Source of the DNA: an uncultured delta proteobacterium
GTDB lineage: Bacteria > Myxococcota_A > UBA9160 > JAFDET01
Direction of reading: 5' to 3'
Length of the DNA: 34,614 bases
Assembly: GCA_947260035.1 (NCBI GenBank)
Contig: CAMYOO010000058.1
Location: 1-34,614, forward strand
In this document: in pieces, positions 25,129-31,247 of the stretch
Position numbering within the stretch: position 1 is the stretch's first letter
Layout of the letters: the number at the start of each line of letters is the position of its first letter
The notes under the pieces: model-generated
The model's input: the letters and a program-made list of their open reading frames with translations, nothing else
What the model was told of the DNA's origin: nothing
The model's database searches: none
Translations under genes and position numbers: made by a program

Positions 25129-27150
25129 ATGGCCGAAGTCGCCATCGGAATCGATCTGGGAACCAGCAACTCCTGCGTCTCCATCGCGCGAGGCGGGTCG
25201 GTGGAGGTGATCCCGAACGCCTACGGCGAGGCGACGTCCGCCAGCGTCGTCGCGTTCCGGGAGGACGGCGAGATCACGGTGGGCAATGCGGCCAAGGCCA
25301 ACATCATCCACGCCCCGTCCGAGACCGTCTACTCGTCCAAGCGGCTGATCGGCCGCTACTTCTTCTCCGAAGAGGTGAAGAAGGCGCGCGCCATCTGCTC
25401 CTACCGCATCGTCGAGGGGCCCAACCACAGCGTCCGCATCCAGGTCCGGGACGACCAGTACTCACTGCCCGAAGTCTCGGCCATGGTGCTGAAGGAGATG
25501 AAGGCGATCGCCGAGGCCCACCTGGGCCAGAAGGTGACCAAGGCCGTGGTGACGGTCCCCGCCTACTTCAACGACAACCAGCGCCAGGCCACCAAGGATG
25601 CCGCGCGCATCGCCGGCCTCGACGTGCTGCGCATTCTCAACGAGCCCACGGCGGCCGCCCTGGCCTACGGCTTCGGACAGGGGCTGACCCAGAAGGTGGC
25701 CGTGTACGACCTGGGCGGCGGCACCTTCGACATCTCGGTCCTGGAGATCGGGACCGACGTCTTCGAGGTGCTCTCCACCTCGGGCGACACGTTCCTGGGC
25801 GGCGACGACTTCGACGATCGGGTCATCGACCTGCTGGCCGACGAGTTCTCTGCGAGCCACGGGATCAACCTGCGCAAGGACCCCTACGCCTTCGAGAAGC
25901 TCAAGGTCGCCGCCGAAAACGCCAAGAAGAACTTTTCGGTGGATGACACGGTGGAGATCCGGATCCCCGGGATCATCAACTCCGAGTCCGGCGAAGCACT
26001 GTCGGTCGAGCGGCACATCGACCAGGCTGAGTTCTCGAGCCTGGTCATGGACCTGGTGATGCGAACCTTCAAGGTCTGCGACGAGGCGCTCCAGAGCGCC
26101 AATCTCACCGTGCGCGACCTGGACGGCGTGATCCTGGTGGGTGGGCCGACGCGCCTGCCGATGATCCGCCAGGCCGTAGGCGACTACTTCCAGAAGCCGC
26201 CGCAGACCGACATCGACCCGGACGAGGTGGTGGCCAAGGGCGCCGCGATCCATGCGGCCTCGCTGACCGACGTGGAACAGGGAGCCTACCTGCTGGATGT
26301 GACGCCTCTGTCCCTGCGCATCGGCGTGGCCGGCGGCCTGGCCGAGACGGTGATCGAGCGCAACACCCCGGTCCCCATCGAGCAGACGCGAACCTTCACC
26401 ACCTTCCAGGACTTCCAGGAGCGCGTGAAGATCCGGGTCTTCCAGGGCGAGTCGCGTCAGGCGGACGGAAACGAGATGCTCGGTCAGTTCGAGTTCGCGA
26501 GCTTCCGCAAGGCGCGCCGCGGCGAAGTGGAGATCGACGTCACCTTCTCCATCGACAGCGACGGACTGGTCCTGGTGACCGCCTGCGACCGGGCCACCGG
26601 ACAGCAGGCCTCCACGGAGATCACGCTCTCGTCCGGCCTGTCCGAGTCCGAAATCGAGGACATCCTGGAGCGGGGCGACACCGACCGCGTGCACACCGCC
26701 AGCCCCGAGGACGCGAGCTCGGCTTCCAGCGCCGACGCCGTCCCGGAGCCGGGTGCGACCCTGGAGCCGGATGCGGAGGAAGACCTGCTGCCGGACGACG
26801 GCGATGAGGAGGTCGAAGATCTCGAACTCGATGAGAGCGACGACATCGAGCTGATGGACGGGGTCGAGACGCCTCCCGCCGAGCTGCGCGGCAACGCGCT
26901 GGACATGGACGGACCGGAGGGGGCGCCCGACGATCCGGTGCCGCTGGAAACGCCGGCCGCTTCGGCCGGCGCAGCCAGCGCAAGCGACGCAGCCAGCGCT
27001 AGCGACGCAGCCGGCGCAAGCGACGCAGCCGGCGCAGCCGGCGCAGCCGGCGCAGCCGAAGACGATGCCACGGCCCGGGACGCGTACCTGGGCGATGCGG
27101 GATCAGATCTGGCGTCCTATGTGGACGGCGACAAACCGGAGTCGAAGTAG
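25129..27150 (+). CDS. Hsp70-family chaperone with intact ATPase and beta substrate-binding domains, no recognisable alpha-helical lid, acidic/Ala-rich C-terminal tail
   Basis: [105 protein letters not shown]; after [15 protein letters not shown] the sequence becomes acidic and low-complexity. Confidence 0.93.
26968..27057 (+). repeat. In-frame tandem repeats (gcagccRgcgcWagcgac 18-mers, then gcagccggc 9-mers) in the Hsp70 tail
   Basis: Encodes ..[27 protein letters not shown]..; repeated units visible by eye. Confidence 0.85.
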
Positions 27151-27168
27151 CGCGCGAGGGTGACGCAG

Positions 27169-27714
27169 ATGTCTGACGTTCTCGCGCCCACAGAAATCCT
27201 GGCCCTGGCCAAGATCCTCGACGAGCTGGACTACTACAAGGTCCTGCACATCGGGACCGGCGCCAGTGCCACCGACGTACGCCAGGCTTTCCACGCCAGC
27301 TCCCGCGCGTTCCACCCGGACGCCAACCGCCACCTGGATGCGGACCATCGCGAGGCCATCGCGCGGATCGCAACCCGCGTGACCGAGGCGTACACGGTGC
27401 TGCGCGATCCGAAGCGGCGCCGCGCCTACGACGATGCGCTGCGCGATGGCCAGAACCGCATGCAGATTGCCGAGGCCGAGGCCCGGGCCGAGAAACAGGC
27501 CACGGTGGAGCTGGATGGCGCCACGCCCAACGGGCGCCGCTACTCGGCCTTGGCGCGCCAGGACGAGGCCCGGGGCGACTTCACCGCGGCGATTCGCAAC
27601 CTCCAGACGGCCGCGACCTTCGAGCCCGGCAACGTCCACTTCAAGAACAAGCTGCAGCAACTCCGCGCCGCCCAGGAAGCGAAGCGCCAGGGCAAGAGGG
27701 GCTCCCGGATCTAG
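27169..27714 (+). CDS. J-domain protein with C-terminal TPR-like segment
   Basis: YYKVLHIGTGASATDVRQAFHASSRAFHPDANR...VTEAYTVLRDPKRRRAYDDAL (HPD present), then RRYSALARQDEARGDFTAAIRNLQTAATFEPGN; 18 nt after the Hsp70 stop. Confidence 0.88.
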   Translation: MSDVLAPTEILALAKILDELDYYKVLHIGTGASATDVRQAFHASSRAFHPDANRHLDADHREAIARIATRVTEAYTVLRDPKRRRAYDDALRDGQNRMQIAEAEARAEKQATVELDGATPNGRRYSALARQDEARGDFTAAIRNLQTAATFEPGNVHFKNKLQQLRAAQEAKRQGKRGSRI

Positions 27715-27740: not shown

Positions 27741-29669
27741 ATGCTGCGGGCCGTGCGCACGCCCGCCTCGTGGCTCCTGTTGATCTGGCTCCCCCTCTTC
27801 CTCGCCTGCGAGCGCAGCGCCGAGGCGCCGGCGCCCTCGCCTGCCGACGCATCCGCGCCCGCCGCGACGGCGACTTCGCCGGCCACCGACCCGGAGCCGG
27901 CGGCCAAGCCGGTCGCGGCGCGCGGCGCCAACGAGCGGCCGCTGCCAGCGTTCGGGGGAACCACGTTCGAGGGCAAGTCGGTCACGGTTTCGGACTTCCT
28001 GGGCCGCCGGCTGCTGATCTTCTTCTTCCGCCCGGACGAAGAGGCGGCCCGCCCGGCCGCCCAGGCCATGGCGACCATCGCGAGGCTCCAGGGCAAGCAC
28101 AACTTCGCCATCCTCGGTGTCGCCAGCGGCGCGCCCACACCCGACGCCCGTGCTTTCGTGGCTGCCGAGGGCCTGGACTTCACCGTGCTCAACGACGCCG
28201 GCGAGTCGATCGCACGCCGTTTCGGGGTGAAGGTGGCGGCCGCCATGCTCTTCGCCGACGCCGAGGGCTATCTCACCGGCGCCATGGGCGCGATGGCCGA
28301 GCGGGTCGACGACCCGGCCGCAACCATCGAGGGTCAGGTCCGCGAGCAAATGCGCCTTCCCGCAGCCGCGCCCCCGCTCCTCGAGCCCGGACTTGGGGAA
28401 TACCCACTGGCGCCGGACTTCACGGCGGGAACCCTGGAGGGCGAGACGGTCAAGCTGTCGGACCTGCGCGGGCGCCCCGTGGTGCTGGCCTTCTTCCTGT
28501 ACACCTGCCCCCACTGTCACCACGCGCTGCAGTTCCTGCGCTCGCACCTGGCTACCATCCCGGAAGCCGAGCGACCCGCGCTGCTGGGCGTATCGGTGTC
28601 GGGCAGCCCGTCGGCCGTGCGCGACGAGCTCAAGAGCAAGGCGCTGGACTTCTTCCCCGTCGCGATCGACCCGGACGGCTCCCTGGCCAAGCGCTACGCG
28701 GTGGCCGGCGGCGTTCCGGACATCCTGCTCCTGGATACCGAGGGCCGGATTCGAGCGCGGACCCAGGGCTGGCGCGACGCCATGGACCCGCCCCTGATGA
28801 AGATGCGCCTGGCGCGGATTGCAGGCGCCAAGCCGCCGATGCTGCTGCACGCCACGGGCTACAGCGGGAACGAGGTGTGCGGCGTCTGTCACGAGAGCCA
28901 GGCCGAGACCTGGCGCTTCACCAAGCACGCCACGGCGTTCGACACCCTGGTGCGCCATTCCGCCGAGCGCGACGGCGAGTGCGTGAGCTGCCACGTGGTC
29001 GGTTTCGACCAGAAGGGCGGCTACAGCATCGACTATGCGACTTTCGCGCCGCGGGTCTCCCATGCCGCCAACGCGCACCTGCTGGCGCTGTCTCCGGCCG
29101 AGAAGCGAGCGCGCCTGGCCGAGGTGGGCTCGACGCGCAAGCCGCTCTTCCGCGACGCGGCCTACGTGGGCTCCAACGCCTGCCAGGGCTGCCATCCGTC
29201 GGAGTTCGCCACCTGGGAGGCGAGCCCCCACGGGCGCGCCATGGACTCGCTGGCCGGCAAGGGCAAGGCGCGCGACAGCGACTGCCAGGTCTGCCACACC
29301 ACCGCCCACGGCAAGCCCGGCGGCTTCCCCAGCGGCGCCGATCCGGTGGCGCATGCGGACCTGGCGCGGGTGGGCTGCGAGACCTGCCACGGACCCGGTG
29401 GAGATCACGTCGGCGAGGACGCGCGGCGCGACGGGACCATCCTGTCCCTGACCGACAAGTGCGACTCCTGCGTCATCCTGCAGATCTGCGGCGGCTGCCA
29501 CGACGACGCCAACGATCCCGGCTTCGAGTTCCACGTGGAGGCGAAGATCGAGGCGCAGCGGCACGGCACCATCGAACCCTCGGCCACCAAGACTCCGCAG
29601 GCACGCCTGGAGGCGCTGCCCGAGCAGATCGGCGCCGTGGAGCACGCGCTGGCCGCCGGAGGACGCTGA
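27741..29669 (+). CDS. Predicted lipoprotein: degenerate redoxin + TlpA/thioredoxin-like domain (CPHC) + hexaheme cytochrome c (c554-like) module
   Basis: LLLIWLPLFLAC lipobox-like; FRPDEEAARPA (no CxxC); FFLYTCPHCHHALQFL; six C-terminal CxxCH motifs: CGVCH, CVSCH, CQGCH, CQVCH, CETCH, CGGCH. Confidence 0.9.
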   Translation: MLRAVRTPASWLLLIWLPLFLACERSAEAPAPSPADASAPAATATSPATDPEPAAKPVAARGANERPLPAFGGTTFEGKSVTVSDFLGRRLLIFFFRPDEEAARPAAQAMATIARLQGKHNFAILGVASGAPTPDARAFVAAEGLDFTVLNDAGESIARRFGVKVAAAMLFADAEGYLTGAMGAMAERVDDPAATIEGQVREQMRLPAAAPPLLEPGLGEYPLAPDFTAGTLEGETVKLSDLRGRPVVLAFFLYTCPHCHHALQFLRSHLATIPEAERPALLGVSVSGSPSAVRDELKSKALDFFPVAIDPDGSLAKRYAVAGGVPDILLLDTEGRIRARTQGWRDAMDPPLMKMRLARIAGAKPPMLLHATGYSGNEVCGVCHESQAETWRFTKHATAFDTLVRHSAERDGECVSCHVVGFDQKGGYSIDYATFAPRVSHAANAHLLALSPAEKRARLAEVGSTRKPLFRDAAYVGSNACQGCHPSEFATWEASPHGRAMDSLAGKGKARDSDCQVCHTTAHGKPGGFPSGADPVAHADLARVGCETCHGPGGDHVGEDARRDGTILSLTDKCDSCVILQICGGCHDDANDPGFEFHVEAKIEAQRHGTIEPSATKTPQARLEALPEQIGAVEHALAAGGR

Positions 29670-30449
29670 GTGGCCCAGGTGCGCGTGGAGAACCGGGGGC
29701 CCGTCCGCACCCTGGTGATCGACCGCGAAGACCGCCGCAACGCCCTGGATCGCGCCACCCTGGATGAGCTGGAGGCAAGCCTGGACCAGGCCGGCGGGGA
29801 CGCCTCGGTGCGCGCGCTGGTGCTGCGCGGAGCCGGGGAGAAGGCCTTCTGCGCCGGCGCGGACCTCTCCGAGCTGGAGGGCCACGCGTCCATCGAAGAG
29901 AGCCGCCGCCACTTCGACGGCGTGGCGCGCGTGATGCTGGCCATGCACCGTGTACCCCAGCCGGTGATCAGCCGGGTGCAGGGCTACGCCCTGGCCGGCG
30001 GCTGCGGGCTGGCGGTGGCCGCCGACCTGACCCTGGCCGCCGAGAGCGCGGTGCTCGGGCTGCCGGAGATCGGCATTGGACTGCTGCCCATGATGGTTTC
30101 GGCACCGATCCTGCGGGCCGTGGGTAGCCGCAAGGTGGTGCTCGACCTGGTGCTCTCCGGTCGCCGCGTGCGTGCCGACGAGGCGCTGCGGCTGGGACTG
30201 GTGAGCCGGGTGGTGCCCGACGGGGCGCTGGACGGCGCCATCGACGCATTGGCGGACCACCTGGCGGGCCTTTCCCCGGCGGCGTTGCGCATGGGGAAGG
30301 AGGCCGTGTACGGCATGGCCGAGATGGAGTACCAGGCGGCGCTGCGCTACCTGCGCGAGGTGGTGGTGCTGACCTCGCGCACCGAGGACGCCCAGGAAGG
30401 GATCCGCGCGTTCTTCGAGAAGCGCGATCCCGTCTGGAAGGGACGCTAG
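29670..30449 (+). CDS. Enoyl-CoA hydratase/isomerase family protein
   Basis: VLRGAGEKAFCAGADLSELEG..VQGYALAGGCGLAVAADLTLAAESAVLGLPEIGIGLLP crotonase signature; GTG start immediately after preceding stop. Confidence 0.92.
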   Translation: MAQVRVENRGPVRTLVIDREDRRNALDRATLDELEASLDQAGGDASVRALVLRGAGEKAFCAGADLSELEGHASIEESRRHFDGVARVMLAMHRVPQPVISRVQGYALAGGCGLAVAADLTLAAESAVLGLPEIGIGLLPMMVSAPILRAVGSRKVVLDLVLSGRRVRADEALRLGLVSRVVPDGALDGAIDALADHLAGLSPAALRMGKEAVYGMAEMEYQAALRYLREVVVLTSRTEDAQEGIRAFFEKRDPVWKGR

Positions 30450-31247
30450 ATGCCGGACCCGAGCGCAGATCTTCGCGACGCCCTGGGCGCAGCGCGCGCA
30501 TGGCTGGGTGAGTGGGTCGAGGAGGGTCTGGAGACCCGGCTGGTCCCGCCGGCTCCGGCGCCAACGCGCGCGCAGCCGCGGCCCTCGCCGCCAGCCCCCG
30601 AGCAACCGCAACCGCAACCGACTCCGGCCCCGGCCAGCGAAGTGCTGCCGATGGGCGACGAGACTCCGCTGTGGCCGGCCGAGCCCAGCTTGGAGCAGGT
30701 GCGCGAGGCGCTGGGCGAGTGCACGCGCTGCGGCCTGTCCGAGGGCCGCACCCAGATCGTGTTCGGCGACGGCAACCCGGAGGCCGACCTGATGTTCGTG
30801 GGCGAGGGGCCGGGCGAGCAGGAGGACCTGCGCGGGATTCCCTTCTGCGGGCGAGCCGGCGAGCTGCTGACGCGGATGATCGAGGGCGGTCTGGAGATCC
30901 AGCGCAGCTCGGTCTACATCTGCAACATCGTCAAGTGCCGGCCGCCGCGGAACCGCACGCCCCTGGCCGACGAAGTGTCGGCATGCCGGCGCTTCCTGGA
31001 CGGACAGATCGACGCCGTGCGCCCCCGCACCATCGTGGCCCTGGGCAAGCCCGCCACCAGCCTGCTGCTGGGCCGCGACGTGGCGATCAGCCGCGTGCGC
31101 GGGCAGTGGCATGAGTACCGGGGCATCCCGGTCATGCCCACCTTCCATCCCGCCTTCATCCTGCGCCAGTACACCGCCGAGAACCGGCGGCTGGTGTGGG
31201 AGGACTTGAAGGCGGCGTTGGCGAAGTCCCGGGAGAGCCATCCTTAG
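30450..31247 (+). CDS. Uracil-DNA glycosylase, family 4 (Fe-S type)
   Basis: CTRCGLSEGRTQIVFGDGNPEADLMFVGEGPGEQEDLRGIPFCGRAGELL..VYICNIVKCRPPRNRTP..VALGKPATSLLLG..VMPTFHPAFILR; Pro-rich linker before the domain. Confidence 0.93.
   Translation: MPDPSADLRDALGAARAWLGEWVEEGLETRLVPPAPAPTRAQPRPSPPAPEQPQPQPTPAPASEVLPMGDETPLWPAEPSLEQVREALGECTRCGLSEGRTQIVFGDGNPEADLMFVGEGPGEQEDLRGIPFCGRAGELLTRMIEGGLEIQRSSVYICNIVKCRPPRNRTPLADEVSACRRFLDGQIDAVRPRTIVALGKPATSLLLGRDVAISRVRGQWHEYRGIPVMPTFHPAFILRQYTAENRRLVWEDLKAALAKSRESHP

Follow-up and report, generated by a model that had tools for sequence, protein, structure and literature searches.

The window analysed here, a stretch of DNA of 34,614 nucleotides from an uncultured Myxococcota bacterium, carries a gene for a single polypeptide in which a pair of thioredoxin-fold domains is fused to cytochrome c554-like haem modules. 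We tentatively regard its product as an envelope thiol:cytochrome electron-transfer protein, in which a CPHC site, a second CxxC (CDSC) and the haem chain may act together, with oxidation of thiols as the likelier direction. The domains are known, while their combination appears to be undescribed. The following features were located in the gene, all on the forward strand:

27741..29669 (+): thioredoxin-multihaem cytochrome fusion gene, complete, 642 aa from ATG to TGA, hexahaem deletion form
27741..27809 (+): signal peptide with a lipobox-like LFLAC end, C23 being the candidate lipidated cysteine (from sequence)
27933..28355 (+): redoxin domain 1, aa 65-205, without cysteines (PF00578, 4.7e-12)
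28404..28820 (+): ResA/TlpA-like redoxin domain 2, aa 222-360 (PF00578, 2.2e-17; best Foldseek matches ResA and DsbE)
28506..28517 (+): CPHC active site, C256-C259
28713..28718 (+): V325-P326 at the cis-proline position of thioredoxin folds, the cis state being presumed from the family
28878..28994 (+): haem motifs CGVCH (28878-28892) and CVSCH (28980-28994), haems 1 and 2 of c554-like module 1 (PF13435, 6.6e-9)
~29025..29029 (+): point at which 153 nt were deleted in frame, taking haem motifs 3 and 4 out (DNA alignment with the ortholog L006)
29181..29390 (+): haem motifs CQGCH (29181-29195), CQVCH (29283-29297) and CETCH (29376-29390), the first three of module 2 (PF13435, 5e-12)
29460..29471 (+): extra non-haem CxxC, CDSC (C574, C577), five residues ahead of the final CxxCH
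29487..29501 (+): last haem motif, CGGCH (invariant CxxCH)

Pfam analysis of the reading frame returned two AhpC-TSA/Redoxin and two Cytochrome_C554 matches, each above its gathering score when scanned singly: 46.4 bits for domain 1 and 63.6 bits for domain 2 against 26, and 37 and 47 bits for the PF13435 modules against 20.8, which places the haem part in Cytochrome_C554. AlphaFold2 models built from 28-29 sequences reached a pLDDT of ~95 in both redoxin domains and ~30-80 in the haem part, a confidence at which the distances from CDSC to the haems or to CPHC are not readable from the model. Low AlphaFold2 confidence is frequent for haem proteins modelled without haem. Profile, structure prediction and fold search thus agree on the fusion that the preliminary description had proposed, and the domain matches, the invariant Cys and His residues in 37 orthologs and the conserved gene order rule out a chance arrangement. 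That description had also recognised no characterised protein of this kind, in line with our comparison with NCBIfam profiles (0 equivalogs at cut-off, all scoring below) and with a literature search, outside which most subscription journals lay, that found neither a paper on the architecture nor a thioredoxin-multihaem fusion of such kind. The lipoprotein-like N-terminus was likewise recovered: C23 is conserved in at least 97% of the aligned orthologs, and most of these look lipobox-like, while the members L046-L048 from another order have no clear lipobox. Acylation at C23 is accordingly a prediction from the LFLAC end and the conserved cysteine.

Domain 1 is similar to Bcp/PrxQ and to thioredoxin-like proteins, and it aligns with PRK09437/PF00578. 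The stretch FRPDEEAARPA, previously read as lacking active-site cysteines, indeed has none, and the active-site position is Cys-free in every ortholog. As the peroxidatic cysteine (PxxxTxxC) that marks Bcp/PrxQ peroxiredoxins is absent from the window copy and all aligned orthologs, a peroxidase or peroxide sensor acting through domain 1 was rejected; with domain 2 being ResA-like, the peroxide sensing suggested at first is unlikely for the protein.

The second domain is ResA/TlpA-like by profile and by fold (TMt ~0.8-0.9 to ResA/DsbE chains) and contains CPHC, as had been described. It scored 58.5 bits against the ResA subfamily profile NF002854 (cut-off 170), and it differs from the ResA/TlpA/CcmG thiol-disulfide oxidoreductases in having CPHC with V-P instead of CEPC, and in its fusion to multihaem modules. 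We considered CPHCH as a seventh haem motif and rejected it: some orthologs have Q or R in place of its last His, whereas CxHC does not vary among 37 in-class and 17 further sequences, which identifies CPHC as a thioredoxin site. V-P occupies the cis-proline position in nearly all in-class orthologs, and T-P does so in distant members. CPHC with V-P or T-P before the strand is a combination known from DsbA-type oxidases.

The window protein has six CxxCH motifs (CGVCH, CVSCH, CQGCH, CQVCH, CETCH and CGGCH), so that the six-haem module described earlier holds for this copy. It does not hold for the family, which is octahaem: all full-length in-class orthologs read, except L109, carry eight CxxCH as two tetrahaem c554-like modules (PF13435). 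A further seven to eight non-motif His residues are conserved, which we count in favour of an electron-transfer role, since they would be enough to ligate most haems from both sides. Haem loading is predicted from the CxxCH motifs together with the cytochrome c assembly genes present in the window genome. Another multihaem protein of this genome (L117, G000:C4:8621-8752) has eight CxxCH followed by apparent TPR repeats.

The haem modules resemble the Nitrosomonas tetrahaem cytochrome c554 (PF13435; NF043010; PDB 1bvb) in motif spacing and sequence, and the module 2 region aligns with it (phmmer, single domain, 3e-7). Unlike c554, the fusion family has tandem modules, thioredoxin domains and an extra CxxC, and the profile for c554 sensu stricto, with HAO as partner (NF043010), gave 69.8 bits for the window protein and 92.1 bits for L006 against a cut-off of 400. 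The nearest partial match was the UshA-like PCGU (seleno)protein NF041198 (138.7 bits, cut-off 275, C-terminal module only). Common to both families is a c554-like tetrahaem module at the C-terminus, linked in each case to a possible thiol/selenol redox motif, whereas the N-terminal half of NF041198 is a UshA-like phosphoesterase, its haem module is single and it has no CDSC. One such UshA-like selenoprotein was encountered at L052 (G093:C32), with an in-frame TGA within PCGU and a C-terminus of the tetrahaem c554-like type. The homology of the modules to c554, together with a redoxin fold retained without cysteines in domain 1, would also suit a multihaem carrier or reductase for another substrate, for instance a nitrogen or sulfur compound, in which the redoxin domains would serve for docking or as structural modules. 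We consider this very unlikely, as CxHC is invariant in all sequences read, near and far, and would be needless in a purely structural domain.

A thioredoxin-octahaem protein, defined by a CxHC domain, eight CxxCH and a CxxC before the last haem, is not what the window copy encodes, as it has six of the eight CxxCH; by synteny and its 89-92% identity to L006, it is best described as an ortholog that lost two haems. L006, from the same genus, retains the block and is 92% identical to the window protein over the N-terminal two thirds, the protein match being split at 428/479 of L006. The missing block comprises 51 aa between GGYS and IDYATF, carries CETCH and CATCH in L006, and also held conserved putative distal His residues (H450 and H475 of L006). 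A search of the window's own assembly did not find the block elsewhere, returning one weak cross-match to the gene's own module 2.

Damage to this copy or an assembly artefact, meaning a non-functional protein or an unreal deletion, would be compatible with any functional reading and is suggested by the window copy being the sole ortholog without haems 3 and 4, the Cys and His residues of the block being at least 98% conserved elsewhere. Nevertheless, we judge it somewhat unlikely. The deletion is exactly in frame and its ends in L006 share just 5 bp (GCTTC), which makes repeat collapse unlikely. Branch-specific changes gave no sign of relaxed selection after the deletion, replacements not being in excess on the branch of the window copy. 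Besides, L109 (G020:C12:44000-47500), from the same order, has independently lost haem 6 and keeps seven CxxCH besides the CPHC site; as this is a different haem from those missing in the window copy, haem loss occurred more than once. Judged from these alignments, the deletion is probably real and recent.

The extra CxxC is present in 37 of 37 in-class sequences, in the context K-C-D-S-C-V-I-L-x-I-C-x-x-C-H. Distant homologs have C-P-[VE]-C at this position in 15 of 16 cases, in the context C-P-[VE]-C-[VI]-x-E-x-[IVL]-C-T-x-C-H, so the motif occurs in the one-thioredoxin and two-redoxin branches alike, and it is missing from the first haem module and from the UshA-like relative. This second CxxC is our best candidate for a link between disulfide and haem chemistry.

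Scanning of genome contigs yielded 16 loci. The gene was found in 74 of 79 other genomes of the order, all with E <=1e-66 (the remaining five gave weak thioredoxin-type matches only), and in 7 of 11 genomes of another order of the same class. A single-sequence search added homologs in 18 genomes spread over six other Myxococcota families; at the threshold used, these matched the haem part, either by itself or together with the second thioredoxin domain, and nothing else. The 16 homologs read from such families all have one CxHC thioredoxin domain and eight CxxCH, and among the Myxococcota sequences read, the Cys-free redoxin domain was seen only in the window's class, probably UBA9160 of GTDB; the in-depth survey covered Myxococcota. 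One genome of the other order holds two divergent fusion paralogs (L107, G085:C497, and G085:C303). A plasmid search retrieved ordinary TlpA proteins only. In the window, the neighbouring genes are:

25129..27150 (+): dnaK (Hsp70), upstream (ORF list, synteny)
27160..27714 (+): J-domain (HPD) protein, upstream (ORF list, synteny)
29670..31247 (+): enoyl-CoA hydratase (29670-30449) and uracil-DNA glycosylase (30450-31247), gapless, downstream (synteny)

The order-wide arrangement, yebC/ruvC - dnaK - dnaJ-like - cytochrome - enoyl-CoA hydratase - UDG - (purE) - aroE - ferredoxin, is kept across families, so the gene was probably inherited vertically. Being housekeeping genes, these neighbours gave no clue to a partner within the order. 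In place of the usual DnaK tail, the Hsp70 in the window (26950-27100) ends with an acidic stretch and a low-complexity repeat rich in Ala, Ser and Asp. In distant families, the surroundings comprise PMT-like or unassigned membrane proteins and NadE-like genes, with no clear partner among them. A gene for a membrane protein of 780-870 aa lies immediately upstream of the one-thioredoxin octahaem gene in three genomes, which belong to two other Myxococcota families (L105:2430-4763, L106:2436-4898, L092:6576-9191); two of these membrane proteins gave no match in Pfam, the third matched GH127/GH88 weakly, and a partner role is possible for them.

The thiol-related genes of the window genome bear on what the fusion might do. 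They include three DsbD/CcdA-type genes, among them a CcdA adjoining a TlpA-like lipoprotein with CPPC, as well as a DsbA-like lipoprotein with CPFC, while DsbB or VKOR was not detected in this genome. A further TlpA-like match (L003, G000:C51:9844-10269) contains an in-frame TGA and is a selenoprotein, a frameshift or an error. DsbA-type thioredoxins occur in 61 of 61 sampled genomes of the order; DsbB was detectable in 17, VKOR scored above cut-off in 5 others, and neither was seen in 39, the window genome included, although divergence or incomplete MAGs may hide genes in these counts. A patchy DsbB/VKOR (22/61) beside a universal DsbA leaves room for another thiol electron acceptor, without thereby showing that the fusion is that acceptor, and many orthologs co-occur with DsbB.

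Under the reading that we tentatively prefer, the CPHC thioredoxin domain would swap electrons with envelope protein thiols, and CDSC beside the last haem would pass them on, converting two-electron into one-electron steps, into the c554-like haem chain, which would unload onto other cytochromes. Net flow would run mostly from thiols to haems, serving disulfide formation or the re-oxidation of DsbA-type proteins, and the Cys-free redoxin domain could be a binding or spacer domain. Thiol-disulfide/multihaem coupling had been raised before; it is plausible and gains from the second conserved CxxC, whereas the coupling itself, the direction of flow and the partners are what we infer from sequence. 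The strong constraint on domain 2 also speaks for this reading (0 amino-acid changes specific to the window or L006 against 13 third-position changes). Oxidation is the likelier direction given the DsbA-like CPHC/V-P site and the patchy DsbB/VKOR. Caution is nonetheless due, as the fold match, ResA, is a reductase, and as the potentials published for CPHC thioredoxins span -32 to -221 mV, so that CPHC alone does not set the potential (PMC4395160).

The ResA-type fold would equally suit electrons running the other way, from the haem chain to the thioredoxin domain, so as to reduce oxidised envelope proteins or extracellular disulfides. Haems of the c554 type can have low potential, and a lipoprotein gene 3' of dnaK could be stress-responsive. 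We nevertheless hold such a reversal to be unlikely, as reductant is already supplied by the CcdA/DsbD route and the active-site motif is DsbA-like. An aid to maturation is about equally improbable. Here the ResA/CcmG-like domain would reduce the protein's own CxxCH disulfides (16 haem-binding cysteines in the octahaem form) for haem attachment and lie idle afterwards, which fits a fusion to a Cys-rich apocytochrome and the nearest folds, ResA and DsbE, both active in cytochrome c maturation. However, the genome has a separate pair of CcdA and CPPC TlpA-like lipoprotein, CPHC with V-P or T-P is unlike the usual reductase site, and the conserved extra CxxC would be left unexplained.

In its proposed role, electron removal from an oxidising CPHC dithiol, our preferred reading of the fusion is analogous to DsbA-DsbB/VKOR, with haems replacing the quinone and the DsbA helical domain missing. 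Carried further, it would amount to quinone-independent disulfide formation in Myxococcota, the DsbA-like domain being re-oxidised intramolecularly by the haem wire via the second CxxC and replacing DsbB/VKOR where these are lacking, a proposal that we regard as quite unlikely.

Among the main electron carriers of the bacterial envelope are thiol-disulfide relays and multihaem wires, two systems that tend to be investigated separately. With both carriers in a single chain found class-wide, and a conserved CxxC next to its last haem, electron transfer straight from thiol to haem can be tested within one molecule. As the window copy and L109 show, single events can remove haems from such a chain, and, if thiol oxidation is true, the family would explain how DsbA-type proteins are recharged in bacteria that lack DsbB or VKOR.
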